Made by a program: the position numbers and the translations under genes. Positions 12,927 to 28,731 of a stretch of 49,940 bases of DNA are shown in pieces. The notes under the pieces were generated by a model. It did no database searches. It saw nothing but the letters and a program-made list of their open reading frames with translations, and had not been told where the DNA came from. Numbering within the stretch: the stretch's first letter is position 1; each line of letters begins with the position of its first letter. Source of the stretch: Lutibacter sp. (GTDB lineage: Bacteria; Bacteroidota; Bacteroidia; Flavobacteriales; Flavobacteriaceae); contig NZ_JAUYUD010000081.1 in assembly GCF_030692605.1 (NCBI RefSeq), positions 1-49,940 on the forward strand. The letters run 5' to 3'.

Positions 12927-13366
12927 ATGAAAAATAAATATGTAGATTATATTTCGGATAAACATCTATTAGATTGTATAGAAAATCTCCATATAGCATA
13001 CTTAAAAGCTAAAAACAATATTACGAAGAAGAAAGTTTAATACAAGCTGAAATTTTAAGACAAATAGACAAATCCATAAATAATTCTATTGGAACTTTTC
13101 ACGAGCAAATTTTAGGTGGCATTGAAGGTTTTGAAGTTGGAAATTTAAGCGGATTTGATATTAAAGCAAAAGATGATACTTTGTTTGCTGTTTTTAAATT
13201 TAATGAAATTTTAAAAAACATTGAAGATTGTATTTTTGAGAAACTAACAAAAGATGCGCAAATTTTTAAAAATGCTAAATTTTATTTTGTTGATTTTACA
13301 ATTGATGAAAACAAATTTGAAAAATGGATTGTTGACAATGAAGATTCTTCTTTCTCACTAGTTTAA
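12927..13366 (+). pseudogene. Remnant of an Eco47II-type restriction endonuclease
   Basis: Two frames together resemble the Eco47II restriction-enzyme family (GGWCC/GGNCC-type). Frame 1 (12927-13040) gives the family-like N-terminus MKNKYVDYISDKHLLDCIEN and stops at TAA 13038. Frame 2 (about 13025-13366) continues with EILRQIDKSINNSIGTFHEQ, then ILGGIEGFE and GFDI. The family segment before RQxDKS appears deleted at the frame change. Where the family has an FAExKNK catalytic motif this copy reads FAVFKFN, so the active-site Glu is replaced by Val. No methyltransferase is nearby. I conclude it is catalytically dead as well as frameshifted. The family assignment is from memory of conserved words and was not searched. 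Confidence 0.6.
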
Positions 13367-13375
13367 TTGCATAAA

Positions 13376-13404
13376 AAAAGGGGCTCAGAAAATGAACCCC
13401 TTTT
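13376..13404. terminator. Bidirectional terminator
   Basis: AAAAGGGG (13376-13383) pairs with CCCCTTTT (13397-13404), with three more pairs after one mismatch, and A and T runs on the two sides. It sits between convergent genes: the restriction remnant (+) and the PiT transporter (-, stop at 13423). Confidence 0.75.
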
Positions 13405-13422
13405 ACCATTTATTAATTTATG

Positions 13423-15681: not shown

Positions 15682-15722
15682 ATTTTTGTTTTTGTTTTTT
15701 GATTATTAATTATTAATTAAAA

Positions 15723-15756
15723 AAACCCGCTTACAGCCATTACTGTACGCGGGTTT
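15723..15756 (-). terminator. Strong terminator or attenuator between phoU and the PiT gene
   Basis: AAACCCGC (15723-15730) pairs with GCGGGTTT (15749-15756) and the stem continues inside as TACAG/CTGTA. On the minus strand it is followed by a run of T. It ends the pst-phoU transcript or attenuates the PiT leader, lying 41 bp before ATG 15681. Confidence 0.75.
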
Positions 15757-15774
15757 CTATTTTTATTTATGAAA

Positions 15775-15804
15775 TGAAATATAATAAAAAATTATTATAT
15801 TTCA
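15775..15804. other. 13-bp perfect inverted repeat in the PiT leader region
   Basis: TGAAATATAATAA (15775-15787) and TTATTATATTTCA (15792-15804) pair perfectly with a 4-nt loop. With the hairpin at 15723-15756 it makes a two-stem structure. It could be an operator or part of an RNA element. Confidence 0.45.
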
Positions 15805-15834
15805 CATTAATTTTGGATTTAAAATAAAGCAACA

Positions 15835-15879
15835 CAAATAACATATTTTAATGATAGGTAAAGGTTAATACAGCGTTAA
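15835..15879 (-). promoter_or_regulatory. Candidate Pho-type box and promoter upstream of the PiT gene (site G)
   Basis: GTTAA words at 15864 and 15875 (11 bp apart) lie 21 bp above a minus-strand octamer GTTATTTG at 15842-15835. The spacing matches the stronger sites further right by one extra helical turn. It is the weakest of the set. Confidence 0.3.
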
Positions 15880-15911
15880 GCTATTACCAATATAATACTT
15901 TATTTAATAAG

Positions 15912-16580
15912 CTATTTGTTTTTTTTATGTTTATGTTTTAACACTTTCGCATCAATATAAAAAATAATACTTTCAGAAATATTTTTCAGTAAATCACCAA
16001 TTTTTTCAAATTTTTTCATCACCACAAGTGCCATTAAATACTGGCGAATTAATTCTGGGTTTTTAAGTGCGTCTTCTGCTACAATTTCAAAAGCATTTGC
16101 ATTTATTTTATTAATAATTTTATCTTTTTTAAATACTTTTCTGGCAGCATTTAAATTTTCATCCATATATGCAGTTACCACATCTTTAAACATACTATCT
16201 AGCGTTTCAAACATTTCTTTAAATTGTAAACTATCCATTACTTGTGGAGTTAACTTTTGATTTAAATCGATGGTATGATTTGCAATATCAAATGCCTGAT
16301 CTCCAATTCTTTCTAAATTGTAATTAATTTTAAGTACGGCTAGAGCAAATCTTAAATCAGTTGCCACAGGATTGTATAAAGCTATAAAATGATCTGTATC
16401 TCGCTCAATTTTTAAATCGAGGGCGTTCATCCGATTTTCCTTTAAAATAATATCTTCTGCTAAATCTGTATCAAAAGCAGTAAAGGTTTCATAAGCGTTT
16501 TCAACTTGCTTTTGACACAACAACAACATTTCTTCACAAATTTGACTCAATCCATTTCTTTGTTCTTCAATATTTATCAT
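15912..16580 (-). CDS. phoU: Phosphate signalling complex protein PhoU
   Basis: 222 residues, typical length, made of two three-helix PhoU repeats. Metal-binding signatures are visible in both: LERIGDQAFDIANHT in the first and FEKIGDLLKNISESI in the second. PhoU connects the Pst transporter to the PhoR sensor kinase and limits phosphate uptake when phosphate is plentiful. It lies 11 bp after pstB on the same strand and is the last gene of the pst operon. phoR and phoB are not in the window. Confidence 0.93.
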   Translation of the reverse strand: MINIEEQRNGLSQICEEMLLLCQKQVENAYETFTAFDTDLAEDIILKENRMNALDLKIERDTDHFIALYNPVATDLRFALAVLKINYNLERIGDQAFDIANHTIDLNQKLTPQVMDSLQFKEMFETLDSMFKDVVTAYMDENLNAARKVFKKDKIINKINANAFEIVAEDALKNPELIRQYLMALVVMKKFEKIGDLLKNISESIIFYIDAKVLKHKHKKNK

Positions 16581-16591
16581 AATTTAATTTT

Positions 16592-17440
16592 TTAACCGAA
16601 TCTACCTGTAATATAATTTTCTGTTTGTTTTTTTTCTGGATTTGTAAATATCTTTTTTGTTTTATCAAATTCAATTAATTCTCCCAAATAAAAAAATGCA
16701 GTATAATCACTAATTCTAGATGCTTGCTGCATATTATGTGTTACAATAATAATAGTATATTCTTCTTTTAAATGATGTATTAATTCTTCTATTTTTGCCG
16801 TAGAAATAGGATCTAAAGCTGAAGTTGGTTCATCCATTAATATAATGGAAGGTTTAACAGCTAAGGTTCTTGCAATACATAAGCGTTGTTGTTGTCCACC
16901 AGATAATGCTAAAGCCGATTTTTTTAAATCACCCTTTACTTCTTCCCAAAGATCGGCTTGTCTTAACGCTTTTTCAACACGTTCATTAAGAAATTTTTTG
17001 TCAGTTATTCCCTGAATTTTTAGTCCGTAAGCAACATTTTCAAAAATCGATTTAGGAAAAGGATTCGGCTTTTGAAAAACCATTCCAATTTCTTTTCGAA
17101 GCTCTTCAACATTTATTTTTTTCTTATAAATATTATCCTCATTTATTTTAATTTTTCCTTCCATTTTAAATCCTTCAACATAATCGTTCATTCTATTAAA
17201 TAAACGAAGGAATGTAGATTTTCCACATCCAGAAGGACCAATAAAGGCTGTTACTGTATTTGGTTTTATAGTCATATCAATACCTTTGATTGCCATAAAA
17301 TCACCATACCAAACCTTAACATCTTTCGCTTCTATTCGTGATGCTTGATTTAATTCAGTCCCATCTTTACTGCTAATAGTATTTAAATCAATTTTTCTAT
17401 CTGCTATTTTATTCATTGTTATTTCCATTTCTTCTGCCAT
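16592..17440 (-). CDS. pstB: Phosphate ABC transporter ATP-binding protein
   Basis: 282 residues. It powers PstSCA phosphate import. ABC motifs are all present: Walker [10 protein letters not shown] (68-76), Q-loop [10 protein letters not shown] typical of PstB, signature LSGGQQQR, Walker [13 protein letters not shown], and the switch His in VTHNM. The frame from ATG 17440 overlaps the end of pstA by 22 bp. A second ATG at 17416 (MNKIADRK) lies 2 bp after the pstA stop and is an equally plausible start. Confidence 0.95.
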
Positions 17441-18273
17441 TTATTTCTAAAATAAACTGCGATACCATTCATAACGAAGGTAATTAATAATAAAATAATA
17501 ATTGCTGCTGCTGCATTTTCAATAAATCCATGCTGAGGCCTTGAAATCCAGTTAAATATTTGAATTGGCAATACAGAAAATTCATCTAATGGGTTTGATG
17601 GAGCAAATGGAACGTATGCTAAAGCACCTACAACAATTAAAGGAGCTGTTTCTCCAACGGCTCTAGAAAGTGCTAAAATTACTCCTGTTAAAATACCACC
17701 GCCAGATGCAGGTAATAATTGATACCAAATTGTTTGCCATTTTGAAGCGCCCAATGCATAAGAAGCGTCTCTAATTGATTTTGGAACGGCTTTTACAGCT
17801 TCTCTTGTTGCCACAATTATAATGGGTAAAATTAAAAGTGATAAGGTTAAAGCTCCTGCTAGAACACTTGCTCCAAGACTCATAATTCTTACAAAAACCT
17901 CTAATCCTAATAATCCATATATAATTGAAGGAACTCCTGCCAGGTTCGAAATATTTATTTCTAATATTGCTGAAAGCCTATTCTTTTTACTATATTCTTC
18001 CAAATAAACTCCTGCTGCAACACCAACTGGAACTGCTATTATGGTGGTTAGCAATAATATCCAGATACTTCCCATTAATGCAGTATAAATACCAGATTTT
18101 TCTGCTTTTCTTGAAGGTAAATCAGTAATAAACGCCCAATCTATTCTACTAATCCCATCAATTAAAATATCCCCAATAAATAGGACTAATAAAACGAGTC
18201 CAATTAAAGTACAAGCTATTCCCCAGTATTTGAATAGCTGATCTTTCAATCTGTTTTTTTGAATGCTATTCAT
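17419..18273 (-). CDS. pstA: Phosphate ABC transporter permease PstA
   Basis: 284 residues with six predicted membrane segments. It carries the ABC permease EAA loop ([20 protein letters not shown]) and the PstA-type ending [17 protein letters not shown]. It forms the inner-membrane phosphate channel with PstC. It overlaps pstC by 8 bp at 18266-18273 and runs into pstB, so the three are translationally coupled. Confidence 0.94.
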
Positions 18274-19144
18274 ATTTTTCTTGGTATTTTTTTCTTATTT
18301 GGTAACTAATTGTGTTAAGTAAAAATGTAAACGCGAACAATGTGATTCCTGCAGCAAAAATAGTTTTATACTCTATGGAACCATGTTGAACATCTCCTAA
18401 ACTAACTTGTATAATAAATGCGGTAATAGTTTCTACAGGAACCGTTGGGTCTAATGTTAATCTTGGCTGCTGTCCTGCAGCTATTGCTACAATCATGGTC
18501 TCCCCTATGGCTCTTGAAATTGCTAATATAATTGATACAATAATACCTGATGAAGCCGCTGGAACAACAACCTTAAAAGCAGTTTGAAATTTAGTTGCAC
18601 CCATACCATAGGAGGCTTCTCTCAAATCCTTTGGAACTGCATATAAGGCATCTTCACTAAGGGAAGATATAAAAGGAATAATCATGATTCCCATTACAAT
18701 ACCTGCAGAAAGGGAATTAAATCCCGATAAATTTGGCATAAATTGTTGTAAAAAAGGAGTTACAACAATTAATGCGAAAAACCCATAAACTACAGTTGGA
18801 ACGGCTGCTAATAGTTCTAATAGTGGTTTTATAGTTTTTCTAAAACTTTTTGGAGCATACTCACTTAGATAAATACTTATAGATAAGCCAATTGGAAGCG
18901 CTACAGAAATTGCAATGAATGAAGTTAGTAATGTACCTGAAAGTAATGGAAGGATACCGTAATGTTTATCGGTAAACAATGGTGTCCATTGAGTGTCTGT
19001 GAAAAAATCAAAAATTGAAACTTCCTTAAAAAAACTAACAGCTTCGATAGCAAGAACTAAAATAATTCCAACTGTTACCGCAATGGTTATTAAAGCACTT
19101 GATAAAAGTGATTTTTCAATTATAAGTTCTTTTATTCTACGCAT
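18266..19144 (-). CDS. pstC: Phosphate ABC transporter permease PstC
   Basis: 292 residues with six membrane segments and the EAA loop ALYAVPKDLREASYGMGATK. The segment TDTQWTPLFTDKHYGILPLL is characteristic of the PstC periplasmic loop. It pairs with PstA to form the phosphate channel. The frame can be extended one codon to TTG 19147, but ATG 19144 is the natural start. It is separated from pstS by a terminator-like hairpin. Confidence 0.94.
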   Translation of the reverse strand: MRRIKELIIEKSLLSSALITIAVTVGIILVLAIEAVSFFKEVSIFDFFTDTQWTPLFTDKHYGILPLLSGTLLTSFIAISVALPIGLSISIYLSEYAPKSFRKTIKPLLELLAAVPTVVYGFFALIVVTPFLQQFMPNLSGFNSLSAGIVMGIMIIPFISSLSEDALYAVPKDLREASYGMGATKFQTAFKVVVPAASSGIIVSIILAISRAIGETMIVAIAAGQQPRLTLDPTVPVETITAFIIQVSLGDVQHGSIEYKTIFAAGITLFAFTFLLNTISYQIRKKYQEKYE

Positions 19145-19163
19145 CAAATTTTATATAAACAAG

Positions 19164-19193
19164 AAAACAGCTAACAATAAAGTTAGCTGTTTT
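19164..19193 (-). terminator. Intra-operon hairpin between pstS and pstC
   Basis: Perfect 12-bp arms AAAACAGCTAAC (19164-19175) and GTTAGCTGTTTT (19182-19193) with a 6-nt loop. On the minus strand it follows the pstS stop and ends in TTTTC. It probably stops or stabilises part of the pstS mRNA, so that the binding protein is made in excess over the permease. Confidence 0.65.
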
Positions 19194-19214
19194 ATCTTAA
19201 TTTATTCCTTTTCA

Positions 19215-20168
19215 TTATTTATTTTTAGCAACAAAAGCTTTTAAATTTTCTTTTTGCTTTGTATATAGTTCCGCAGGTAAAGGAATATAACCTACATCTT
19301 TAGATAATTTTCCAGCATTGTCAATATAAAAATTAACAAATTCTATAACTTCAGGAGATTTTACAGATGTGCTGTTTACATAGATAAACAAAGGCCTCGA
19401 TAATGGACTATAAGTTCCATTTCTAACTGTTTCTAAAGTAGGTTTTACAACTGTTTCTCCGTTATGCACACCAATTAATGTTAATTTATCTTTGTTTTCA
19501 GTATAATAAGCTAAACCAAAGAAACCTAATGAAAATTTATCCCCGGCAATTCCTTGCACTAAAACGTGATCATCTTCACTTGCTGTAAAATCACCTCTAC
19601 TTGAACCGCTTTTACCAACAATAGCTTCAGTAAAGTAATCAAATGTTCCTGAAGCAACACCAGGTCCAAACAAATGAATTTCTTCATTTGGCCACTCTGG
19701 ACGAATTTGATTCCATTTCATTATTTTCCCTTGGGCTGCAGGCTCCCAAATTTTCTTTAATTCTTCAACTGTAAAACTGTCTACCCAAGTATTTTTTGGG
19801 TTTACTAATACCGCTAAACCATCGTAAGCAACTTCCAATTCTAAATAATTGATATTGTTTTCTTTACAAGCAGCAATTTCTTTATCTTTAATTGGGCGAG
19901 ATGCATTTGATAGGTTGGTTTCTCCTCTTGAAAATTTTTGAAAACCACCTCCGGTTCCCGAAACTCCAATAGTTACTTTTACATTTGGCTGAACATTTCT
20001 AAATTCTTCAGCTACAGCTTCGGTTATTGGAAAAACAGTACTCGACCCGTCAATACTAATTGTTCCTTCTAATTGTGTTGTTTCAGAATTGTTTTCTTTT
20101 TGTTCTTTTTTGTTTCCACAAGCGCCCATAATTAATGTTATGGACAGAATAAATACTAATTTTTTCAT
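19215..20168 (-). CDS. pstS: Phosphate-binding lipoprotein PstS
   Basis: 317 residues. A lipoprotein signal ([16 protein letters not shown], lipidated Cys17) is followed by the PstS fold. Phosphate-contacting segments are visible: [34 protein letters not shown], and [21 protein letters not shown]. It captures phosphate in the periplasm for PstCA. A candidate Pho box with a TTTG-type -7 element lies 31-65 bp upstream. The porin gene ends about 100 bp upstream on the same strand. Confidence 0.94.
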
Positions 20169-20198
20169 ATTTGTCTATGTTAATTTAATTTAATTTTA

Positions 20199-20232
20199 CA
20201 AAAAAATGATTTAATTGTAAAGTTTATGTTAA
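20199..20232 (-). promoter_or_regulatory. Candidate Pho box and promoter of pstS (site A)
   Basis: GTAAA at 20217 and GTTAA at 20228 are 11 bp apart (ATTAA continues the phase at 20239). On the coding strand this reads TTAACATAAACTTTACA, like the Bacillus PhoP-type TTAACA-N5-TTTACA. Ten bp further down is TTTTTTTG (20206-20199), a partial TAnnTTTG. Confidence 0.55.
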
Positions 20233-20273
20233 CTGAGAATTAATTGTTTAATATTTTTTATAAAATGATTTAA

Positions 20274-21281
20274 TTATAATTTAAATTCAGCATTTAAAAA
20301 CACCAACGATTTATTATCTAAAGTACTGTTGTCGAAACTAAACCCTTGATAATTTAATGAAAATTTAATTCCTTTTAAAGCATTGTACTGTATCCCTGTG
20401 ATAATCCGCTCACCGTCCTTTCCATAATTCCAAGCATTTACATCTCCGCTTAAGGTATTTGATTGTAATTGATCATATCTTCCAAAAATTTCAAATTTGC
20501 CATTAAATGCATAGGTAGAATAGATTGAAAAACCATCTAAATTATGATCATTTGCGGCAGTAGAATAGGTTTTACCGTTATTAAGTTTATTGTATTCTGC
20601 TCCTATTCTCCAATTTTCAAAATTATAACCTGCAAAAACGCCAATAGTAGTAATTGCATCTGAATTATCTGAAGATTGGCTATCAAACATAACCGATGTG
20701 GTAAGTCCTTTAACAGGTTTGTAAACTAAATTTACTCCAAATTTTTGATTTCCATCATTATCTTGTAAATTTCTAAAACCTTCACCATTGGTAACTGTAA
20801 CATTCGCCAATAATTTCTCACTTAAAGCAATTTCTGCATTAATTCCTAAGTCTGCCGTTGGACCAAATCCGTTTGCATCTTGAAACGAATTAAAAACATA
20901 TCGGTAACCCCAAAATTTTTCTTGTTCACTAAATTGATTCATTCCAATCAATCCCATACTAAGTATTAAACTTGGCGCCACTTTCCAATCTAATTGAGCA
21001 ATTTTTGCAAAAGCAGTATAACTACTTCCGCCAGTATTGTTACCAACATCGAACGTAACATTTACTGAAACATCTTTCGAAATGTTATATTTATAGCCCA
21101 AATAAGCTCTTTTTAATTCAAAAGCACTTGTTTTTGTTGCATTTTTAGTAAAATCAACGTGATAATTCCAAAATATTCTTAAAATTGGTTCTCCGTTTGG
21201 TTTAAACTCTTCATTTGAATTTTGAGAAAATGAAGCAAGTGATAAAATGAGGGCAGTTAAAAATAATAATTTTTTTTTCAT
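20274..21281 (-). CDS. Phosphate-locus outer-membrane porin
   Basis: 335 residues with a signal peptide (MKKKLLFLTALILSLASFS) and alternating beta-strands to the end (VFLNAEFKL). The aromatic-girdle pattern and segments such as FELKRAYLGYKYNISKDVSVNV resemble the OprO/OprP-like porin group. It likely lets phosphate cross the outer membrane to PstS, which is encoded next on the same strand. Phosphate selectivity is an inference from position. The leader is long: the nearest convincing Pho box (site B) is about 255 bp upstream. Confidence 0.75.
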   Translation of the reverse strand: MKKKLLFLTALILSLASFSQNSNEEFKPNGEPILRIFWNYHVDFTKNATKTSAFELKRAYLGYKYNISKDVSVNVTFDVGNNTGGSSYTAFAKIAQLDWKVAPSLILSMGLIGMNQFSEQEKFWGYRYVFNSFQDANGFGPTADLGINAEIALSEKLLANVTVTNGEGFRNLQDNDGNQKFGVNLVYKPVKGLTTSVMFDSQSSDNSDAITTIGVFAGYNFENWRIGAEYNKLNNGKTYSTAANDHNLDGFSIYSTYAFNGKFEIFGRYDQLQSNTLSGDVNAWNYGKDGERIITGIQYNALKGIKFSLNYQGFSFDNSTLDNKSLVFLNAEFKL

Positions 21282-21517
21282 TCGAATATTGTTTTTTTAG
21301 TATAAACTAAAAATCGAAAATTTTCAATTTACTTTATAAAAGTAAGGTTTTATTAATAATTTCTTAGATGCTAGTGAAGAAAAATAATAATTTTTAATTC
21401 ATTACCACATTTTGCGGGAAAAGTTTTTTTATTGAAAAATTATAATGAAAATCAAAAAAAGAGTAATTTACTAATGCTTTTTTCTTTTGATTCATCTCGT
21501 ATTAGTTTTTGTCGCTG

Positions 21518-21562
21518 CAAAGAACTAAAACGTTTGTTAAATTAACGTTAAGAGTGTGTTAC
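21518..21562 (-). promoter_or_regulatory. Candidate Pho box and promoter of the porin (site B)
   Basis: GTTAA at 21536, GTTAA at 21547 and GTTAC at 21558 are spaced exactly 11 bp. Ten bp below the lowest is GTTCTTTG (21525-21518 on the minus strand). The same geometry is seen at sites A and E. The inferred TSS falls near 21510, at the edge of the inverted repeat. Confidence 0.5.
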
Positions 21563-21583
21563 GAATTCAATAAAGTTTAAATT

Positions 21584-21660
21584 AAAAAAAAGGCTACCCA
21601 AGAGAGGTAGCCTCAACATTTCATAATTTAGTCGACAAAAACTAATAGATTATATGAAAA
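21584..21660 (-). ncRNA. 3' portion of a putative small RNA upstream of the porin
   Basis: Inferred from the orphan terminator. The 3' part would carry TATTAGTTTTTGTCG, perfectly complementary to CGACAAAAACTAATA at the expected 5' end of the porin mRNA. The 5' end cannot be fixed; weak promoter-like octamers occur at 21805-21812 and below site C. It would fit a leader RNA just as well. Confidence 0.35.
21591..21613 (-). terminator. Orphan minus-strand terminator in the non-coding interval
   Basis: AGGCTACC (21591-21598) pairs perfectly with GGTAGCCT (21606-21613) over a 7-nt loop. On the minus strand the stem is followed directly by a run of T, so it is oriented to end a minus-strand transcript. 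No gene lies upstream for 540 bp on that strand. Confidence 0.7.
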
Positions 21661-21954
21661 GATATATTTTAAATATAGCACAAAAATCAAGTAATAAATT
21701 CAATTAAATGTGACCCAAACATTATCTAATTATTAAATATTTCTTTTAAATTTTATTTATCCATTATTAGCTAGGGTTATGGTTTGAGTTTTGTTTTGGG
21801 AATACAATATTAATTAAAAATGGATTTTTTTAAAAGAATTGAGTTATAGCTCCCTCATTTTAGGATTTTTATTTTTAGATATTTGTGATATATGAGAAGA
21901 TTTTTTTATCTCATAAAATTAACAGATTAGCTCTTGAAATTAAAAAAACACAAT

Positions 21955-21970
21955 GTAAAGTTAATGTTAA
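21955..21970. promoter_or_regulatory. Candidate Pho box (site C)
   Basis: GTAAA at 21955 and GTTAA at 21966, 11 bp apart. The sequence GTAAAGTTAATGTTAAC is nearly identical to site A at pstS. It has no clear -7 element at the expected distance, so its target is uncertain (the putative minus-strand RNA or the plus-strand gene at 22156). Confidence 0.45.
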
Positions 21971-22064
21971 CACAAATTAATATTACAAATACAACTATTT
22001 CAGGTGTAAATTACGATTTCATAAGTGTCAGTATATCAAATATATAACACATATTTTAAAAAAC

Positions 22065-22120
22065 TTAATGTAAACTTAACGTTAACTTTAAGTAAATAAA
22101 AAGCAAATTGCCTACATTTA
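22065..22120 (+). promoter_or_regulatory. Candidate Pho box and promoter of the YwqK-like gene (site D)
   Basis: Three in-phase words: GTAAA 22070, GTTAA 22081, GTAAA 22092 (coding-strand TTAAT/TTAAC/TTTAA at 22065/22076/22087). A -7 element TACATTTA lies at 22113-22120, 21 bp past the last TTWAN word, i.e. one turn further than at sites A, B, E and F. The gene starts 35 bp below. Confidence 0.5.
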
Positions 22121-22155
22121 TAATGTGTAAAAAAAAACTTAAAACAAAATAGACC

Positions 22156-22503
22156 ATGAAAACATTTATAAACCTCGTTGTAATGTTGTTTTGTATCACA
22201 GCATTTTCACAAGAACAAAAAGCAGTATATCAAAAAATGGAGAACAATTTGGTAAAAGTCACCTATTATTTTGCCGATAACAGTACCATTGTTGAACGAG
22301 AAGGGTATTTCAATAAAGAAGGTAAATTGCATGACACGTGGATCAGCTATGATTTACAAGGAAACAAAAAAGCGATTGCCACCTATAATAATGGCATAAA
22401 AGAAGGTGTCTGGACTTATTTTAAAACCGATAAAATAAACGTTGTTACCTACCAGGGAAACAAAATAATCCATGTTGAAGAAAAAACGTTGGTTGTTAAT
22501 TAA
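22156..22503 (+). CDS. Small secreted YwqK/MORN-like protein
   Basis: 115 residues with a signal peptide (MKTFINLVVMLFCITAFSQ). The body holds two MORN/YwqK-like units (EGYFNKEGKLHDTWISYDLQG and ATYNNGIKEGVWTYF; Gly-x-Trp and Asn-Gly turns). Flavobacteria encode many such exported proteins of unknown role; similar repeats are annotated as YwqK-family antitoxins, but no toxin is near. A triple Pho-type array upstream suggests induction by phosphate limitation. It is followed by a 40-bp perfect palindrome that serves as terminator. Confidence 0.7.
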   Translation: MKTFINLVVMLFCITAFSQEQKAVYQKMENNLVKVTYYFADNSTIVEREGYFNKEGKLHDTWISYDLQGNKKAIATYNNGIKEGVWTYFKTDKINVVTYQGNKIIHVEEKTLVVN

Positions 22504-22523
22504 CGAAAAAAATAATTATGATT

Positions 22524-22563
22524 AAACAAAAAGGCTGAAATTTAAATTTCAGCCTTTTTGTTT
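22524..22563. terminator. Bidirectional terminator, 40-bp perfect palindrome
   Basis: The arms AAACAAAAAGGCTGAAATTT (22524-22543) and its exact complement (22544-22563) abut with no spacer. It lies between convergent genes ending at 22503 (+) and 22582 (-), with A and T runs at both edges. Confidence 0.85.
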
Positions 22564-22581
22564 TTATGTACCAGCTTTTTT

Positions 22582-25398
22582 TTATAAGCTAAGACTGTAT
22601 CCCAAGGAAAATGCTATTCCTGGTTTTCTGAAGGAAAATGGTTGTGCTACAGCTCCGTAAGAATCGTACAAACTTTGTCGTTTTTCATCCAAAATATTGT
22701 CAACTTTTAAACTTATGGAAGATTTACCCTCTTTATCCAATGTTTTTGAAAAATTGAAATTCAAACTGTTGAAAGGCTGCACATAAACATCTGGGTTTTG
22801 CCCAAAACCAACAACTTCAAGCGTTTTTCCCTGCACGTTGAAAAACATTCCAGTTTCCAATCCCATTGTTTTATTATTGTAATTTAATCCAGCATTTACA
22901 AGAAACGGTGATTGCCCTTGCAATTGTCTTGTGTCGTCAATAACTTCTCCGTCACGGGCAAAAGTTTGTCTGGAATCAAATTCTTGATTTACGCCCTTAT
23001 TCATTTTTATTTTGGAATCGATGATGGAAAGGTTTACGTTTAAGCTCAGGTCTTTTAAACTTTCAGAAATAAAGTTGAAATTCTTTCTTGCCTCAAACTC
23101 AAAACCAAAAACTGTTGCCGATGGCGAGTTTCTTGGCGTAAATTGGTTTGGTGCAATCACAGAAAATGCAACCAGCTCAATAGGATTCTTAAAACTTTTA
23201 TAAAAAGCGCTTATCGCAAACATTTGCGCCTGTTCGCCATACTTTTCAAACCTAAAATCGACATTGTCAATATAAGAAGGTTTTAAGTCAATGTTCCCCA
23301 AAAACATCACCCCTGTAAGCAAATCGGGAATTTGAACCACCGACAATTCCTTAAAACTTGGCCTTGCAGTGGTTTTAGAATACGACATTCTGATGTTTAT
23401 GGCATCATTGTATTCATAAATGAAATTTGCAGAAGGGAAAAAATCCATTTCTTCAAGGGTATTTTCATTGTCATATATTTGGCTGCCTAAATTATTTTGG
23501 CCCGTAAAGAAAGTGGTGAAATACTCTGCCCTTACCCCCAAAATAGTTCTCAATTTTTCTCCAATTTTAAATTCATTGGAAACATAGGCCGCCGCAGTGT
23601 TTTGATTGGCATCAAAAGAGTTTGCAGGTTCAAAATTACCACGAATATAGGAACCTGAATTGGTGGATGGCGTCCATATATTTTCATCGGCCAATATGGT
23701 GTTTGGGTCGCCGCCAAATACCGTCGGACTTATATTTCTAAAAGCAATTTCGTAATTGTAAACCGAATAATCACGCTGTTTATAACTGTACAACCCTCCA
23801 AATTTAAATACCGCCTTGCTCGAAAAAAGATCGTATTTTTTTGTAAAATCTATTTTTCCAACTGCATTTATTTCTTCCAAATTCCGCCAAATTCTGTTAG
23901 GAAAACCGGCATCTGAACTGATGGTAAATCCGTCAGGCAATTTTATAAAAGTGGTCAACCTAACATCTTTATCATAAACTCTGGAATAGGTTGGCGATAT
24001 TTTCCATTCTGTAATAAACGAGGCGTCTTCACTGGTGTTTTTACCCGATAAAAGCACATTGGTAATGGCGCGTTCTGTATATTCCAAATTGTCTTTTACA
24101 ACATCTATCGCGTTTGAAATCTCCGTTTTTTGATCAAATAATGCAGCTCTGCTTTCACCATTTTGAATGTGCAAAAAGTTAAGATTGTATTTTGATTTTA
24201 GGGTTTTATAAGACAAACCCGTTAAAACAGAGGCCAAAACATTATTTGTGCCAATATCTCCTCTTTGTCTTCTGTCAAAACGAAGCTCAAATTCGTCTCT
24301 TTCTTCAGGTTTTTGATAAATCCCGTTTTCAAAACCTTCATAAAAATTGGTGGTGTTTTTGTAATCAACAGAAGCTATAAAACCGAGTTTATTGTCTTTA
24401 ACATCAAACTGATTTCCATAATTAAAACCAAAACCAAAATCGGGAAAACTTATTTTTTGCTCCGTGGCCAGCGTCCTGTTAAAAGCGCGCGTAATCGGCT
24501 CTAAAGTTCTGTTTTTTACTGATGCTGGATTTGGGATAATTTGCGCTGTTGAAATTGGAATACCTCTGGCGCCATCATCAAATCCCAAAAAGTCTGTTCT
24601 GCCTCCTTCATAAGTTAAATAATTATCTTTTAAATGCATACTCGGATTAAAACCTCCTGAAACAGAAAATTCCATTTGCTTTTGTGAAGGAAAATCTTTG
24701 GTCACAATATCAATAACGCCACCCGTAAAATCGGCTGGTAAATCGGCGGAAGCAGACTTAATAACGAGAATATTTTCTAAAATATTGGTTGGGAAAATAT
24801 TCATTTGAATGGTATTTTTATCGGGATCCAGCCCTGGAATATCCATGCCGTTTAAAATAGATTTTGTGTATCTGTCGCCCAAACCCCTGACATAAACATA
24901 CTTTCCGTCCTGAACAGAAACCCCAGGAACGCTTTTTATGGCAGAAGCGATATTGCTGGCGCCGGTTTTGTTGATGCTCGCAATAGACAAACCGTCTATT
25001 AATGTCGCCGATTTCTTCTGATAAGATAATATGGATGCTTCGGTATTTTGTCTGGCTGAAGAGGTAACCATCACTTCCTTCAACAAAACCGAAGAATTTA
25101 AGGTGACATTTATGGTTGACACCTGATTGTTTTTAATGCTTACTCCTGTTATTTCTTTTGATTCATAGCCAATAAATGAGAAAACAATGGTATAAACTCC
25201 TTCTTTAAGTTTTAAAGCATAAAGACCCTCAAAATCTGATGTAGTTCCTTTTTCTGTGCCTTTTACCGAAACATTGGCAAATGCAAGAACATCATTATAT
25301 TCACCATCCAAAATTTTTCCCGTTACTTTTCCTGATTGTGCTTTCATCACTTGTATAGCTATTAAACACACAATTATAAGAATCCCTTTTTTTAACAT
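22582..25398 (-). CDS. TonB-dependent outer-membrane receptor, probably phosphate-regulated
   Basis: 938 residues. Signal peptide to about residue 20, a carboxypeptidase-like regulatory domain (GKVTGKILDGEYNDVLAFAN; SFIGYESKEITG) to about residue 110, a plug domain (IASAIKSVPGVSV, YVYVRGLGDRY, GGVIDIVTKDFP), then a 22-strand-type barrel ending FSLGYSLSL. It imports a substrate driven by TonB/ExbBD. It follows the beta-helix lipoprotein gene on the same strand, separated by a hairpin at 25443-25477. A sampled 60-base stretch (24961-25020) has 27 G/C against 18 in one from dgt, hinting at foreign origin. The substrate is unknown. The Pho-type arrays upstream of the operon suggest a phosphate-containing ligand or a cofactor needed under phosphate stress. 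Confidence 0.85.
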   Translation of the reverse strand: MLKKGILIIVCLIAIQVMKAQSGKVTGKILDGEYNDVLAFANVSVKGTEKGTTSDFEGLYALKLKEGVYTIVFSFIGYESKEITGVSIKNNQVSTINVTLNSSVLLKEVMVTSSARQNTEASILSYQKKSATLIDGLSIASINKTGASNIASAIKSVPGVSVQDGKYVYVRGLGDRYTKSILNGMDIPGLDPDKNTIQMNIFPTNILENILVIKSASADLPADFTGGVIDIVTKDFPSQKQMEFSVSGGFNPSMHLKDNYLTYEGGRTDFLGFDDGARGIPISTAQIIPNPASVKNRTLEPITRAFNRTLATEQKISFPDFGFGFNYGNQFDVKDNKLGFIASVDYKNTTNFYEGFENGIYQKPEERDEFELRFDRRQRGDIGTNNVLASVLTGLSYKTLKSKYNLNFLHIQNGESRAALFDQKTEISNAIDVVKDNLEYTERAITNVLLSGKNTSEDASFITEWKISPTYSRVYDKDVRLTTFIKLPDGFTISSDAGFPNRIWRNLEEINAVGKIDFTKKYDLFSSKAVFKFGGLYSYKQRDYSVYNYEIAFRNISPTVFGGDPNTILADENIWTPSTNSGSYIRGNFEPANSFDANQNTAAAYVSNEFKIGEKLRTILGVRAEYFTTFFTGQNNLGSQIYDNENTLEEMDFFPSANFIYEYNDAINIRMSYSKTTARPSFKELSVVQIPDLLTGVMFLGNIDLKPSYIDNVDFRFEKYGEQAQMFAISAFYKSFKNPIELVAFSVIAPNQFTPRNSPSATVFGFEFEARKNFNFISESLKDLSLNVNLSIIDSKIKMNKGVNQEFDSRQTFARDGEVIDDTRQLQGQSPFLVNAGLNYNNKTMGLETGMFFNVQGKTLEVVGFGQNPDVYVQPFNSLNFNFSKTLDKEGKSSISLKVDNILDEKRQSLYDSYGAVAQPFSFRKPGIAFSLGYSLSL

Positions 25399-25442
25399 CT
25401 CTTTATCTTATTATCTTATTTAAAAATATTATATAAATGAAC

Positions 25443-25477
25443 AAAATGTCCATAGCCAAAACAGGCATGGACATTTT
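25443..25477 (-). terminator. Intergenic hairpin between lipoprotein and TonB receptor
   Basis: AAAATGTCCAT (25443-25453) pairs perfectly with ATGGACATTTT (25467-25477). The T-run on the minus strand is short, so this may be an attenuator or 3' stabiliser that favours the lipoprotein over the receptor. Confidence 0.5.
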
Positions 25478-25499
25478 ATTTTAAAGTTTTAAAATTATA

Positions 25500-26732
25500 T
25501 TAGTAGGCGCTTTTTGAAGCTGCATAAGTCCAAGAAAATAGAGATGTATTTGCACCAACCGTTGCGGCACTTGGAGACGCTATTGAGGTTGCATTATTCG
25601 TGAATTTTACTTCATCCCCAAGTTTGGCCCCTGTAATCAAACTACCTATTGTGACACCGACAGGTAAAACTATTTGCCAATTAGAGAAGGTAATTCTACC
25701 ATTTGCCAACTCTGTGGCAGAGTCGGCACCGTTTACTTTAACTTTAGAATCTACCGAAAAACCATAAGCTAATACATTTTTCATGTTTGCAATAAGCCCG
25801 TCTCGTAAATCGGCATATTTACTTGAAGTGCCCGCCCCTTTAAGGGTAATGTTTTCAATGGTAAAACCGGCTTCCTTTGCGGCAGAACCTTCTGGGCCGT
25901 CAAACTCCAATGCACTGTCCGAGTCCACCCCTAAAATAACCAAGGCGTTTTTTATTGATCCGGACCAGGCTTGGTCAAAATCCAATCCATCGTCACCCTG
26001 AGCCCAAGTAAGTATATTTGTCACATTTACGCTGCCTCCAAAAATTTCAATTGCATCATCTTGGTTGGCAACAATTTCAATATGGTCAATAGTGGTTCCT
26101 GAACCAACGCCGCCAAGCGTTAATCCGTTAATTTCATTATCCGCACCAATTGTAATTCCTCCATGTCTTATAGAAATGTACTTATAAACACCTGAATTGT
26201 CATTGGCAACATTTCCTCCATATTGTCCAAATGTATCTGTTGCAGGAATTCCCTCTATTTGTTTGGTGGCAACATCACCGCTTACAGAAATAGGGGCTTT
26301 ACCAAGCACGATTAACCCACCCCACAAACCGTCGTCTGAAAAAGATAAATTAGTGCCGGCTTTTTGTCCAATTTTGATATTGTCCAATACAGATGTAAAA
26401 ATAATTGGTTTGGCAGTAGTTCCTTCAGCAATTAATTTTCCTCCTTGGTCAACTATCAATGCAGAGGCCAATGAGCCTTGCCCTTCAGCGCCTTTAACAA
26501 TTGTGCCTGCTTCAATAGTTAATGTAACCCCATCATCTACAACAACTTTTCCTCCTAAAATATATATTTTGTTAGCAGTCCAAGTTTCATTTGCTTTAAT
26601 AATTCCCGCTTTCGTCACTACCGTTAGTGGTTCTTCCTCATCAATGATTATAGGTGAATCATTGTCGTTTCCGCAACTAGCGGCAAAATTTGAAATAAAA
26701 ATCAGTATAATCAAATAATAAAAAGTTTTCAT
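25500..26732 (-). CDS. Beta-helix surface lipoprotein paired with the TonB receptor
   Basis: 410 residues. A lipoprotein signal (LIILIFISNFAASCGND, lipidated Cys20), a short acidic linker (IIIDEEEPLT), then a right-handed parallel beta-helix. Acidic turns are frequent: NQDDAIEIFGG, GDDGLDFDQAW, DSDSALEFDGPEG. These suggest a calcium- or ligand-binding face. As an outer-membrane lipoprotein encoded just upstream of a TonB receptor it is probably the substrate-capturing partner, by analogy with SusD-like pairs, though it is not SusD. Six in-phase 11-bp Pho-type words lie upstream. Base composition is also raised here. No enzyme motif recognised. Confidence 0.7.
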   Translation of the reverse strand: MKTFYYLIILIFISNFAASCGNDNDSPIIIDEEEPLTVVTKAGIIKANETWTANKIYILGGKVVVDDGVTLTIEAGTIVKGAEGQGSLASALIVDQGGKLIAEGTTAKPIIFTSVLDNIKIGQKAGTNLSFSDDGLWGGLIVLGKAPISVSGDVATKQIEGIPATDTFGQYGGNVANDNSGVYKYISIRHGGITIGADNEINGLTLGGVGSGTTIDHIEIVANQDDAIEIFGGSVNVTNILTWAQGDDGLDFDQAWSGSIKNALVILGVDSDSALEFDGPEGSAAKEAGFTIENITLKGAGTSSKYADLRDGLIANMKNVLAYGFSVDSKVKVNGADSATELANGRITFSNWQIVLPVGVTIGSLITGAKLGDEVKFTNNATSIASPSAATVGANTSLFSWTYAASKSAY

Positions 26733-26772
26733 AAGTAAAATTTAGTTTAATTTATTTGTTTAAATGTTGATG

Positions 26773-26867
26773 CAAAGAAATAGCGCTTGGTTAAACAGAA
26801 GGTTACTTAGAAGTTATAAAAAGGTGATAATAGCGTAAAGTTAATGTTAAGAAGACGTTGATTAATT
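26773..26867 (-). promoter_or_regulatory. Six-unit Pho-type array and promoter of the lipoprotein/TonB pair (site E)
   Basis: Words starting at exact 11-bp steps: GTTAC 26802, GTTAT 26813, GTGAT 26824, GTAAA 26835, GTTAA 26846, GTTGA 26857, with TTAAA at 26791 keeping phase. Ten bp below 26791 is TTTCTTTG (26780-26773), one mismatch from TAnnTTTG. The top unit overlaps the stop codon of the gene at 26862. Confidence 0.6.
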
Positions 26868-27239
26868 AGTTAATGAAATATCAGCATTCAACTTTAAAGC
26901 GCTTACTTTTTGCTTAATGGAAAGCGTATTTCCCGCAACAACGGCAATATCGCACAATTCAATGGTTTCATAGCCTAAAAACTGCACTTCCAATATATAG
27001 TTTCCAGGTTTTAAATTGAAAGAAAAAGACCCGTTTAAATCTGAATTTGTTTCAAAATCAGTATTTTTAACTGTAATAGTTGCAAAAGCCAATGGTTCAC
27101 TTTTGGTTTCATTGTCTAAAATAATACCTGATATTTTTCCTTTATTATTTGATTCTAAAAAAAATGAATCAATCTTAAATGATTGTCCGGAAATTAATCC
27201 GCTTGAAAAAAGTAGTATAATAATTAATATTAATCTCAT
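26862..27239 (-). CDS. Stand-alone carboxypeptidase-like regulatory-domain protein
   Basis: 125 residues. A signal peptide (MRLILIIILLFSSGLISGQ) is followed by one beta-sandwich of the kind that precedes the plug in flavobacterial TonB receptors: GKISGIILDNETKSEPLAFA, SDLNGSFSFNLKPGNYILEV, FLGYETIELCDI. It ends soon after (KLNADISLTN), so it is either a deliberate single-domain secreted protein or the head of a receptor that lost its barrel. Because a Pho array stands on each side of it, I favour a functional member of the phosphate regulon. It lies upstream of the lipoprotein and TonB genes on the same strand. Confidence 0.65.
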   Translation of the reverse strand: MRLILIIILLFSSGLISGQSFKIDSFFLESNNKGKISGIILDNETKSEPLAFATITVKNTDFETNSDLNGSFSFNLKPGNYILEVQFLGYETIELCDIAVVAGNTLSIKQKVSALKLNADISLTN

Positions 27240-27264
27240 ATGTTTATAGTAAATAATAATATTG

Positions 27265-27331
27265 CTAAATGAAGGTTTATATGTTAATTAAAGGTTATGT
27301 GTCGTTTATTATTGTGTGATGTTAAGGTTAA
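27265..27331 (-). promoter_or_regulatory. Pho-type array and promoter of the regulatory-domain gene (site F)
   Basis: GTTAA 27283, GTTAT 27294, GTGAT 27316 and GTTAA 27327 share an 11-bp phase (27305 is off by one base). Ten bp below 27283 is TCATTTAG (27272-27265), a loose TAnnTTTG. ATG 27239 follows 26 bp later. Confidence 0.45.
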
Positions 27332-27399
27332 GATTCAATAAAGTTAAGTCTACAAAAAAATATAAATTATTAAGTATCTTGCAATCTAAAATTTAACTT

Positions 27400-28731
27400 A
27401 TGAATTGGGAACAATTACTTTCTTTAAAACGATTTGGAGACACTCAAAAAAGGTTAAGAAATCAACAAGATGAAACCAGACTTGGTTTTGAAGTGGATTA
27501 TGACCGAATTATTTTTTCTGATTTTTTTAGAAGTCTTCAAGATAAAACACAAGTAGTTCCTTTTTCTAAAACAGATTTCGTTCATACCAGATTAACACAT
27601 AGTTTAGAGGTGAGTGTTGTGGCTAGGTCTTTGGGAAGAATTGTTGGCGAACAGGTTCTTAAAAAACACCCTGAATTGGCGATTAAAGGATATAAAATAA
27701 ACGATTTTGGTGCCATTGTAGCAACGGCAGCCTTAGCGCATGATATAGGAAACCCCCCATTTGGACATAGTGGAGAAAAAGCTATTGGTGAATTTTTTAA
27801 AAATGGTAATGGTCAAAAATATGAGTTGGTTTTATCTAAAAAACAATGGCAAGATTTAATAGATTTTGAAGGAAATGCAAATGGTTTTAGAATTTTAAAC
27901 GAATCTAAAGAAGGTATGAAAGGTGGTTTGCGATTATCCTATGCAACGATTGGTGCTTTTATAAAATATCCAAAAGAATCATTACCTAAAAAACCATCGA
28001 ATCATATTGCAGATAAGAAATTTGGAATTTTTCAATCTGAAATTTCGTTCTTTAATGATGTTGCTCAAGAATTAGGCCTAGTTGCAACAGGAGTAAATGG
28101 TAACGTTGCTTTTAAAAGACATCCTTTAGCCTATTTAGTTGAAGCTGCAGATGATATTTGCTATACCATTATTGACTTTGAAGATGGTATAAACTTAGGC
28201 TTAATTGAAGAAGAATTTGCCTTGGAATACTTAATAAAATTAGTGAAAAATACCATAAATATTAAAAAATACCATCAGTTAAAATTTAAAAAAGATCGTT
28301 TAAGTTATTTAAGAGCATTGGCTATTGGAACACTTATTAATGAAGCAACAACTGTTTTTTTAGAAAATGAAGACGCCATTTTAAAAGGTGAATTTCACTA
28401 TTCATTGTTAGATAAATGTAAGTTTGAAGCCCAAATTAATGATATTATTAAAATAAGCGTTGATAAAATATATAAAAGTAGAACTGTTATAGAAAAAGAG
28501 GTTTCTGGATATAAAATTATTGGCACTTTATTAGATGTTTTCGTAACCGCACTCAATCATAAATATGAAGGAAATATGAGTAATTATGATCAATTAATTA
28601 TTTCCTTATTGCCCGAAAGTTTACACGAACCAAAAGATAATCAGTACCTTAGACTTTTAACGGTTTGCGGTTACGTTGCTAGTTTAACAGATGGTTTTGC
28701 ATTGCAATTATATAAAAAATTAACTGGTTAA
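27400..28731 (+). CDS. dgt: Deoxyguanosinetriphosphate triphosphohydrolase
   Basis: 443 residues. It hydrolyses dGTP, and often other dNTPs, to the nucleoside and tripolyphosphate. The HD-domain motifs are complete: RLTHSLEVSVVARSLGR, AHDIGNPPFGHSGE (HD pair), and the later Asp in AADDICYTIIDFEDG. N-terminal RLGFEVDYDRIIFSDFFRSLQ is the family allosteric and active-site edge. It stands alone on the plus strand between minus-strand genes. Product tripolyphosphate sits interestingly beside a phosphate locus, but that is probably chance. Confidence 0.92.
   Translation: MNWEQLLSLKRFGDTQKRLRNQQDETRLGFEVDYDRIIFSDFFRSLQDKTQVVPFSKTDFVHTRLTHSLEVSVVARSLGRIVGEQVLKKHPELAIKGYKINDFGAIVATAALAHDIGNPPFGHSGEKAIGEFFKNGNGQKYELVLSKKQWQDLIDFEGNANGFRILNESKEGMKGGLRLSYATIGAFIKYPKESLPKKPSNHIADKKFGIFQSEISFFNDVAQELGLVATGVNGNVAFKRHPLAYLVEAADDICYTIIDFEDGINLGLIEEEFALEYLIKLVKNTINIKKYHQLKFKKDRLSYLRALAIGTLINEATTVFLENEDAILKGEFHYSLLDKCKFEAQINDIIKISVDKIYKSRTVIEKEVSGYKIIGTLLDVFVTALNHKYEGNMSNYDQLIISLLPESLHEPKDNQYLRLLTVCGYVASLTDGFALQLYKKLTG

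Follow-up and report, generated by a model that had tools for sequence, protein, structure and literature searches.

Flavobacteriaceae form a large bacterial family found in soils and aquatic habitats. Here, we analysed a stretch of 49,940 nucleotides (nt) from a member of this family, Lutibacter sp. (contig NZ_JAUYUD010000081.1, positions 1 to 49,940; in the following 'the window'), in which short words repeated at steps of 11 base pairs (bp) precede a cluster of phosphate uptake genes. We consider it probable that these arrays are Pho boxes of a PhoB-like regulator and that one of them drives a small RNA (sRNA) of ~90 nt, which pairs with the mRNA of an outer-membrane porin, so that the whole forms a feed-forward circuit.

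Phased arrays upstream of the phosphate genes

On the plus strand of the window, strict pairs of GTWAA words (TTWAC on the other strand) at an 11-bp step start at positions 20217, 21536, 21955, 22070, 22081 and 26835, and an additional pair at 15864, absent from the list in a preliminary description of this DNA, lies upstream of a PHO4/PiT phosphate transporter gene. Counted over the whole window, this strand has 7 pairs at lag 11 and at most 5 at any other lag between 5 and 29, a value seen at lags 6 and 22; the minus strand shows no excess, with 2 pairs at lag 11 and a top value of 4 at lag 27. The noncoding DNA of the region 20169-27399 (1,447 bases, both strands) holds 6 lag-11 pairs versus 0.14 on average and never more than 3 in dinucleotide shuffles. 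As a count of 6 was not reached in any of 2,000 shuffles, whether at lag 11 or elsewhere, the phasing pointed out in the preliminary description exceeds chance. All array coordinates named there held on reading of the region. The 'six in a row' reported for 26802-26857 are found at these positions, but only 26835 and 26846 are strict words, while 26802 (GTTAC), 26813 (GTTAT), 26824 (GTGAT) and 26857 (GTTGA) are degenerate; the same applies to 21558 (GTTAC), 27294 (GTTAT) and 27316 (GTGAT). Under a loose word rule requiring an initial G and a match in 4 or more of the 5 positions, the longest run in the region is 4, a length reached or exceeded in 6 of 2,000 shuffles, so that a long loose run is less exceptional when taken alone.

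A TTTG-like octamer had been proposed to follow the last word of most arrays after 10 bp. Octamers and gaps are as described, and the 10-bp rule passed an unbiased test comprising the window segment and 20 relative loci, in which every run-ending TTWAC-N6-TTWAC pair was scored on both strands, genic or not (n = 70). TTTG starts 14 bp past the last word (10 bp plus four bases) in 35 of the 70 pairs, with no more than 2 at any other offset from 0 to 40; the 35 hits are not independent, since the loci are related and some stem from one genome. The octamer corresponds to the -7 consensus TAnnTTTG published for Flavobacterium, located at -12 to -5 (PMC9723704). With the -7 box in this position, the last array word is placed where an activator could touch sigma.

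In transcription direction, the putative Pho box of pstS (20199-20232, minus strand) reads TTAAC-N6-TTTAC-N10-TTTTTTTG. The other minus-strand arrays are those of the porin (21518-21562; words at 21536-21562, -7 box GTTCTTTG at 21518-21525), of the lipoprotein/TonB genes (26773-26861; -7 box TTTCTTTG at 26773-26780), of a regulatory-domain gene (27265-27331; -7 box TCATTTAG) and of PiT (15835-15879), where TTAAC-N6-TTAAC-N21-xxxxTTTG shows a spacing of 10+11. This 10+11 layout, equivalent to a TTTG offset of 25, is shared by the PiT box and the sRNA promoters. Distance and orientation to the core promoter are fixed with the exception of the plus-strand array of a ywqK-like gene (22070-22120). 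There, GTWAA reads with the gene, upstream of the -7-like TACATTTA. This array, inverted relative to the others, is present in all 9 sequences displayed (window and 8 relatives) and also differs from the others in its distance to the -7-like box, possibly reflecting a different mode of regulation.

Conservation of the arrays in relatives

The upstream regions of pstS were compared across relatives, a check suggested in the preliminary description. PstS is present in 15 of 24 same-genus genomes, and a TTWAC-N6-TTWAC pair precedes pstS in 15 of the 17 relative loci with this gene, in L095 at a different distance; L108 and L110 have no such pair before pstS. The usual layout is the pair, 10 bp and xxxxTTTG, the pair ending ~40-60 bp before the start codon. 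In relatives, the TonB or lipoprotein gene, the porin gene and the regulatory-domain gene are likewise preceded by pair, 10 bp and xxxxTTTG, with position, orientation and the gap to the -7 box all retained. A porin homologue lies immediately before pstS in 12 of the 17 loci. The lipoprotein/TonB promoter of the relatives shows a long run of such words by eye, the exact phase of which is not constant.

The core 16-mer GTWAARTTAAYGTTAA has three exact matches in the 3.1 Mb of the genome, all inside this cluster, and nine with at most one mismatch, six of them in the cluster (five places, one counted on both strands). An exact match occurs in 20 of 40 genomes (own, 24 same-genus, 15 others). Among 28 relative loci with the 16-mer, 18 lie close to a gene for a window protein homologue (the porin in 10) and 10 do not. 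In phoX upstream regions of other genera, words appear partly phased by eye, and the strict count was 2 at lag 11 versus 49 at lag 20. Several upstream regions of phoX in Chryseobacterium (L188-L267; 24 of 80 displayed) contain, by eye, the block TTTAAC-AATTA-TTTAAT-CCCC-TTAAC and also TTAAA-N6-TTAAC-N21-TAGTTTTG, which resembles the 10+11 layout.

A candidate sRNA with its own array

The PiT box, the inverted orientation of the ywqK array and a candidate sRNA with its own array were all missed in the preliminary description. The candidate Pho-driven sRNA (21584-21676, minus strand, from the predicted +1 to the end of the T-run; ~90 nt) is located between ywqK and the porin gene. Its promoter array at 21710-21736 reads TTAAT-N6-ATAAT-N6-GTCAC, followed by N21 and the -7 box GATTTTTG at 21681-21688. 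The predicted transcript contains a seed hairpin (21619-21659) with TTAGTTTTTGTCGACTAA at 21628-21645 and an intrinsic terminator (21584-21614), the first of 11 terminator-like sites listed; this strong minus-strand terminator (21614-21590) lies away from any annotated gene end. An alignment of 12 loci upstream of the porin array revealed a conserved unit ending in the terminator, and in L098, L102 and L106 the sequence of the unit is kept though other DNA separates it from the porin gene. Judged by these motifs, the unit has a promoter and a terminator of its own. The intergenic site at 21955 is an array as described earlier, but the array nearest to the sRNA is the one at 21710-21736; a transcript from 21955 was rejected as the conserved unit begins at 21710-21736. 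An open reading frame (ORF) listing of the minus strand between 21560 and 22000, which is no formal coding test, gave only two ORFs of at least 20 amino acids (aa), both of 20 aa. Folding of the whole segment 21585-21935 was unremarkable (z -1.47).

A covariance model built from 20 sequences (window, 16 same-genus, 3 from other genera) matched 92 of 199 genomes of the family, inferred to be Flavobacteriaceae via genome G040, the PhoX of which is 100% identical to that of Flavobacterium limi. Of 98 matches in all, a few weak ones lack the seed; 90 were retrieved and 8 were not; from the 90, L352, L354, L355 and L356 were then removed as seedless or doubtful and L346 as truncated. The window match (21587-21690) has an E value of 1.1e-16, the window sequence being part of the training set. 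Five g17 genomes (Flavobacterium by G040) among those listed have no match to the model. Across the family, the promoter reads TTAAT-N6-WTAAT-N6-RTTAC, 21 bp (10+11) and xxxxTTTG; the three-word array is found in 56 of 82 loci, 45 of these 56 with TTTG at N21+4. The body of ~80-120 nt comprises a 5' hairpin in several species, a hairpin with TTAGTTTT-GTC and the terminator. According to motif rules, 63 of 77 loci have a YwqK-like divergent gene; in 79 loci, the gene that comes next is porin-like in 64, PiT in 3 and of another type in 12, which includes the porin type of the window. All six family porin-like proteins scanned match PF07396 (Phosphate-selective porin O and P) above the cut-off. 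L108 (3507-3609, minus strand) has a second match ~210 bp upstream of PiT, the other copy being at 9407-9504.

Beyond the family, a model rebuilt from 94 matches (R2) hit 14 of 345 genomes of the class, with the seed only in the window genome and in G103; the other 12 hits were rejected, being seedless by eye and resembling plain terminators. Rfam 15 gave no match over the sRNA in a scan of window positions 13000-28000 (E up to 1) and no match at gathering score in 9 loci. The candidate sRNA is apparently undescribed so far.

Seed hairpin and terminator covary. The 20-sequence alignment has 20 cells with changes on both sides of a pair versus 5.6 in shuffles; of five measures, four were not reached in any of 500 shuffles and the fifth was reached in 2, and shifting the pairing partner by 1-3 columns abolishes the signal. 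Covariation resides mostly in the terminator, with both-sided variation in 6 of its 9 pairs versus 3 of 8 in the seed hairpin. In alignment A3, all 10 predicted terminator pairs show both-sided changes, and RNAalifold predicts the terminator alone.

Complementarity of sRNA and porin mRNA

The conserved loop sequence AUUAGUUUUUGUC of the sRNA is the complement of GACAAAAACUAAU (21501-21513, minus strand), which starts four bases past TTTG. Because the -7 box lies at -12 to -5 (PMC9723704), this is the predicted +1, and GACAAAAACUAAU would form the first 13 nt of the porin mRNA. The spacing from TTTG to the site is four bases in 63 of 79 family loci and five in 11. The longest complementary run within the next 420 nt beats all 20 shuffles, which keep base composition only, in 64 of 90 loci (mean 12.3 versus 7.6). 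Accessibility of the seed core is moderate, with a mean unpaired probability of 0.54 versus 0.38 for the rest in 90 folded sequences.

Evidence for pairing was sought in covariation of seed and target. We collected 93 seed-target pairs from 104 candidates (90 family, 14 genus; 11 dropped); the targets of L101, L102 and L343 were mis-assigned by the rule and these rows were kept in the count. Core bases 0-6 are fixed on both sides by the search rules, and hence only the remaining positions count as evidence. For positions 9-15, the paired score of 438 exceeds the permuted mean of 403 (standard deviation 6.2, maximum 429) and was reached in none of 3,000 permutations. Both sides changed together to AAGUUUUUGUC/GACAAAAACUU (seed AAG, target CUU) in L311, L326, L344, L348, L350 and L351, and to UUUUAGUC/GACUAAAA in L095 and L339. 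Other target changes are compatible with wobble, e.g. AAAAAUUAAU; in 12 of 93 targets, U replaces C at the adjacent core position and a G-U pair is retained. Relative to the other labelled rows of the porin tree, the AAG type needs a minimum of two changes. Compensatory changes were found, with few independent events.

Presence of sRNA and target is also correlated. Both occur in 56 of the 199 family genomes, the sRNA alone in 36, the target pattern alone in 14 and neither in 93 (Fisher p = 1.6e-12, relatedness uncorrected); in the genome of the window, the pattern TTTGN{2,6}GACAAAAAYTNAT occurs once, at the porin. Two genomes keep the pair although its halves are apart. In G318, ~3 kb separate the sRNA from the Pho-type promoter of a porin-like gene, whose leader contains GACAAAAACTATAAACGATTTT as the counterpart of AAATCGTTTAGTTTTTGTC in the sRNA, and in G338 the target site precedes a porin-like gene on a different contig from the sRNA match. 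G020 (L104) has the site in both the porin and the PiT leader. Moreover, 7 of 18 pstS leaders carry GACAAAAA no more than 25 nt away from the start codon, and G019, in which the seed is altered, has GACTAAAAC at the pstS start codon, matching its altered seed. The pstS matches are suggestive only, but pstS may be a second target of the sRNA.

Proposed circuit

Based on these observations, we propose the following scenario. Along the direction of transcription, direct TTWAC repeats with an 11-bp period end 10 bp (or 10+11 bp) before a sigma-A -7 box, and tandem phosphorylated PhoB-like molecules would contact RNA polymerase from there, as PhoB does in E. coli. Under low phosphate, the regulator would bind the arrays and activate the promoters of PiT, pstSCAB-phoU, the porin, the TonB/lipoprotein genes and the sRNA; the ywqK-like gene would perhaps be switched on as well via its inverted array. 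The loop of the sRNA would then pair with the first ~13 nt of a porin mRNA that is itself induced by the same regulator, and this feed-forward circuit would tune phosphate uptake at the outer membrane.

Distances downstream of the site bear on the possible sign of the sRNA effect. The first ATG follows at a median distance of 20 nt and within 40 nt in 78 of 79 family loci, which makes repression easy to picture; in the window, this ATG would open a short leader ORF. The porin start codon itself is 160-232 nt past the site in 9 of 11 cases measured in the genus of the window (12 loci tried; 15 and 28 nt in the other two), which points to masking of the 5' end, decay or control through a short leader ORF. 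By eye, the porin leaders of the window (21282-21513, minus strand) and of several species contain a short ORF as well as a weak hairpin with a T-run. A leader hairpin as a genus feature was rejected, since the four leaders folded gave unconvincing z values of -0.36 to -1.99. On a wider claim our judgement is evenly balanced: that the circuit is common to the Flavobacteriaceae, with the porin, sometimes PiT and perhaps pstS tuned together by 5'-end pairing, through masking or control of decay, and not by ordinary occlusion of the Shine-Dalgarno sequence.

Arguments against the proposed circuit and alternative explanations

The 11-bp repeats stand before phosphate genes and are kept in relatives, but the genome-wide regulon expected in the preliminary description, with phoB and phosphatase genes among the hits, was not found, although no search was aimed at the phosphatase genes of this genome. 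A number of observations weigh against our interpretation. Genome-wide, a looser pattern gave 54+68 matches versus 133+130 for the control, i.e. fewer than the control, without an excess of boxes outside the cluster. The prediction that the regulator is encoded elsewhere agrees with a PhoB-like regulator and a PhoR-like kinase on another contig (C90, locus L032), for which PhoB and PnpS/PhoR are the best NCBIfam models; the regulator scores 209 bits against a curated PhoB cut-off of 296, and the upstream region of its gene has no clear array. Judged from motif matches, the detectable regulon in this genome is this cluster. On the side of the sRNA, the search rules for seed and target were written after the pair had been seen, and seed invariance is partly selected because the seed belongs to the model by which the loci were detected. 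Relatedness is not considered in the permutation test, and no pairing test fully corrects for it; a tree built from 79 porins places the UUUUAGUC type in a single clade (98/99), so that it may go back to one event. The window duplex of -21.1 kcal/mol was equalled by 35 of 500 shuffled targets. The strict target pattern is missing from 36 of 92 sRNA-positive genomes, in some through variant targets. L282, L288, L317, L324 and L325 bear the seed with no adjacent target by rule, and a search for distant targets succeeded only for L324 (G318), with none for L282, L288, L317 and L325; six of the other genomes searched yielded none or unrelated hits.

Could the arrays simply arise by chance in DNA with a noncoding G+C content of 21%? 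The genome-wide count below control would fit this idea, but the shuffles, the conservation and the fixed spacing already contradict it, and we give it next to no credence. An OmpR-family regulator other than a PhoB homologue might bind the arrays instead. Several proteins of this family use direct repeats near 11 bp, the genome encodes five Trans_reg_C matches, and the phoB-like gene lacks a clear box; in addition, the authors of PMC9603813 likened the Riemerella anatipestifer motif to that of ArcA. We regard this as unlikely given that the genes downstream include pst, PiT and the porin and that the L032 pair is closest to PhoB and PnpS/PhoR, a scan which covered only the L032 regulator of the five.

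The complementarity itself might be a DNA inverted repeat recognised by another regulator, with one half downstream of the porin promoter, the other in an upstream element and no RNA pairing involved. In all 79 family loci the halves are 98-203 bp apart, although the search spanned only ~620 bp by construction, and the loop segment holds a partial palindrome. Such a repeat would not account for C-to-U and A-to-G target differences that preserve G-U pairing, for the covarying hairpin and terminator, for a promoter array at fixed distance to its -7 box or for the separated pairs in G318 and G338, and it appears very unlikely to us. A real sRNA that stabilises the porin mRNA is a more serious contender, possible in our eyes though tentative. 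Pairing at the 5' end would then mask the mRNA against decay and boost porin synthesis, as the sRNA FasX reportedly does for ska mRNA in streptococci. In 63 of 79 family loci the site coincides with the predicted +1. In the genus of the window it is kept there despite a porin start 160-232 nt downstream in 9 of 11 cases, which suits masking better than occlusion of the start codon, whereas the proximity of the first ATG in the family loci means that pairing could block translation there.

Genes of the cluster and additional observations

The genes behind the arrays were assigned as follows. A PHO4/PiT transporter gene (13423-15681, minus strand; PF01384) is followed by pstS-pstC-pstA-pstB-phoU (15912-20168, minus strand; assigned by Pfam, pstS also by TIGR02136 above cut-off). 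Between pstS and pstC, a 12-pair hairpin with a T-rich tail (19164-19193) possibly lowers pstCAB relative to pstS. The porin gene (20274-21281, minus strand; 335 aa) has weak porin matches below the Pfam and NCBIfam cut-offs and no PF07396 match in the Pfam scan. The YwqK/MORN_2-like gene (22156-22503, plus strand) is the divergent partner of the sRNA; its protein in the window has no Pfam hit, and MORN_2 was below cut-off in three relatives. Further genes encode a TonB-dependent receptor, assigned by Pfam, and a lipoprotein-like protein of 410 aa with no family match in Pfam or NCBIfam (together 22582-26732, minus strand), as well as a CarboxypepD_reg domain (26862-27239, minus strand; PF13715).

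The orphan array TTAAC-N6-TTTAC (21955-21970, minus strand) is possibly a remnant or a distal site. In two relatives, a small ORF follows a site that is equally far from the ywqK array. In L111 (14604-16711; also in L113 near 1060) the site at the orphan position is followed by a gene for a ClC channel/CBS protein (PF00654, as tested for L111), and judging from this position the channel may be phosphate-regulated in both.

We also tried TTAAC-N6-TTAAC-N14-TTTG as a family-wide regulon finder. It occurs in 53 of 199 genomes, but the control was frequent too and one recurrent class, TTAACTTCGTTTAGTTCGGTTTG, stands before a gene that by eye looks MarR/GbsR-like; for these reasons it was dropped as a Pho marker. 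In L157, L158, L160, L161, L167 and L169, a promoter of the form TTAAC..TTCGTTTAGTTCGGTTTGTTCCGAAC precedes a gene of ~160-180 aa that looks MarR/GbsR-type by eye. This promoter is likely an autoregulatory operator and not a Pho box.

Significance and comparison with known systems

The results yield a rule on word and spacing of Flavobacteriaceae Pho boxes that can be put to the test and with which phosphate regulons could be predicted. To our knowledge, few sRNA targets are known in the phylum. The conserved sRNA-target pair with its natural compensatory changes lends itself to direct tests of pairing at the outermost 5' nucleotides of an mRNA, and if the sRNA reading is true, control of phosphate uptake may extend to the RNA level.

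Two described sRNAs are related in kind. Bacillus PhoS (reviewed in PMC12101431) is a phosphate-starvation sRNA induced by the phosphate response regulator, like the candidate proposed here, but by its description it stabilises phoR mRNA and has a role in biofilms. Rfp18 of F. psychrophilum (PMC9723704), likewise a Flavobacteriaceae sRNA with predicted stem-loop pairing, is set apart by its described action on metalloprotease mRNAs.

Regarding the regulator, work on Bacteroides fragilis (PMC3547664) demonstrates binding of a Bacteroidota PhoB to the pst promoter and its requirement for the expression of pstC when phosphate is low; a 512-bp fragment was bound, and the accessible passages give no box sequence. 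In Flavobacterium johnsoniae (PMC8115612), a TonB receptor and a lipoprotein encoded beside phoBR are strongly induced on phosphate depletion. This pair (Fjoh_0545/0546 in Table 1 of that study) is similar to the TonB/lipoprotein pair of the window; the terms 'Pho box' and 'promoter' are absent from the main text as available. A partial literature search, with subscription papers outside its range, returned no described Pho box or Pho-dependent sRNA of Bacteroidota besides the following two sources. For PhoP of the PhoPR system in R. anatipestifer (Flavobacteriales; PMC9603813), DNA affinity purification sequencing gave TTTAACA as the most conserved bases; an 11-bp repeat, the spacing to a -7 box, a phosphate regulon or an sRNA do not feature in the accessible passages, where the motif is compared to ArcA. 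Putative Pho boxes were computed in plcP gene clusters of marine bacteria, with a Dokdonia flavobacterium among the isolates (PMC4796936), and the passages at hand state neither box sequences nor a flavobacterial origin of any box. Given the TTTAACA motif and the plcP boxes, such boxes are not an entirely new idea. PhoB/PhoP boxes of E. coli, B. subtilis and Streptomyces (PMC4415409) are likewise tandem 11-nt direct repeats with a variable arrangement of units, to which the phosphate response regulator binds. Unlike these, which are built of CTGTCAT or GTTCACC, the arrays described here consist of TTWAC located 10 or 21 bp from TAnnTTTG, and one is inverted. Pho boxes are of a known kind, and the arrays of the window would be a variant with a word and spacing of their own.

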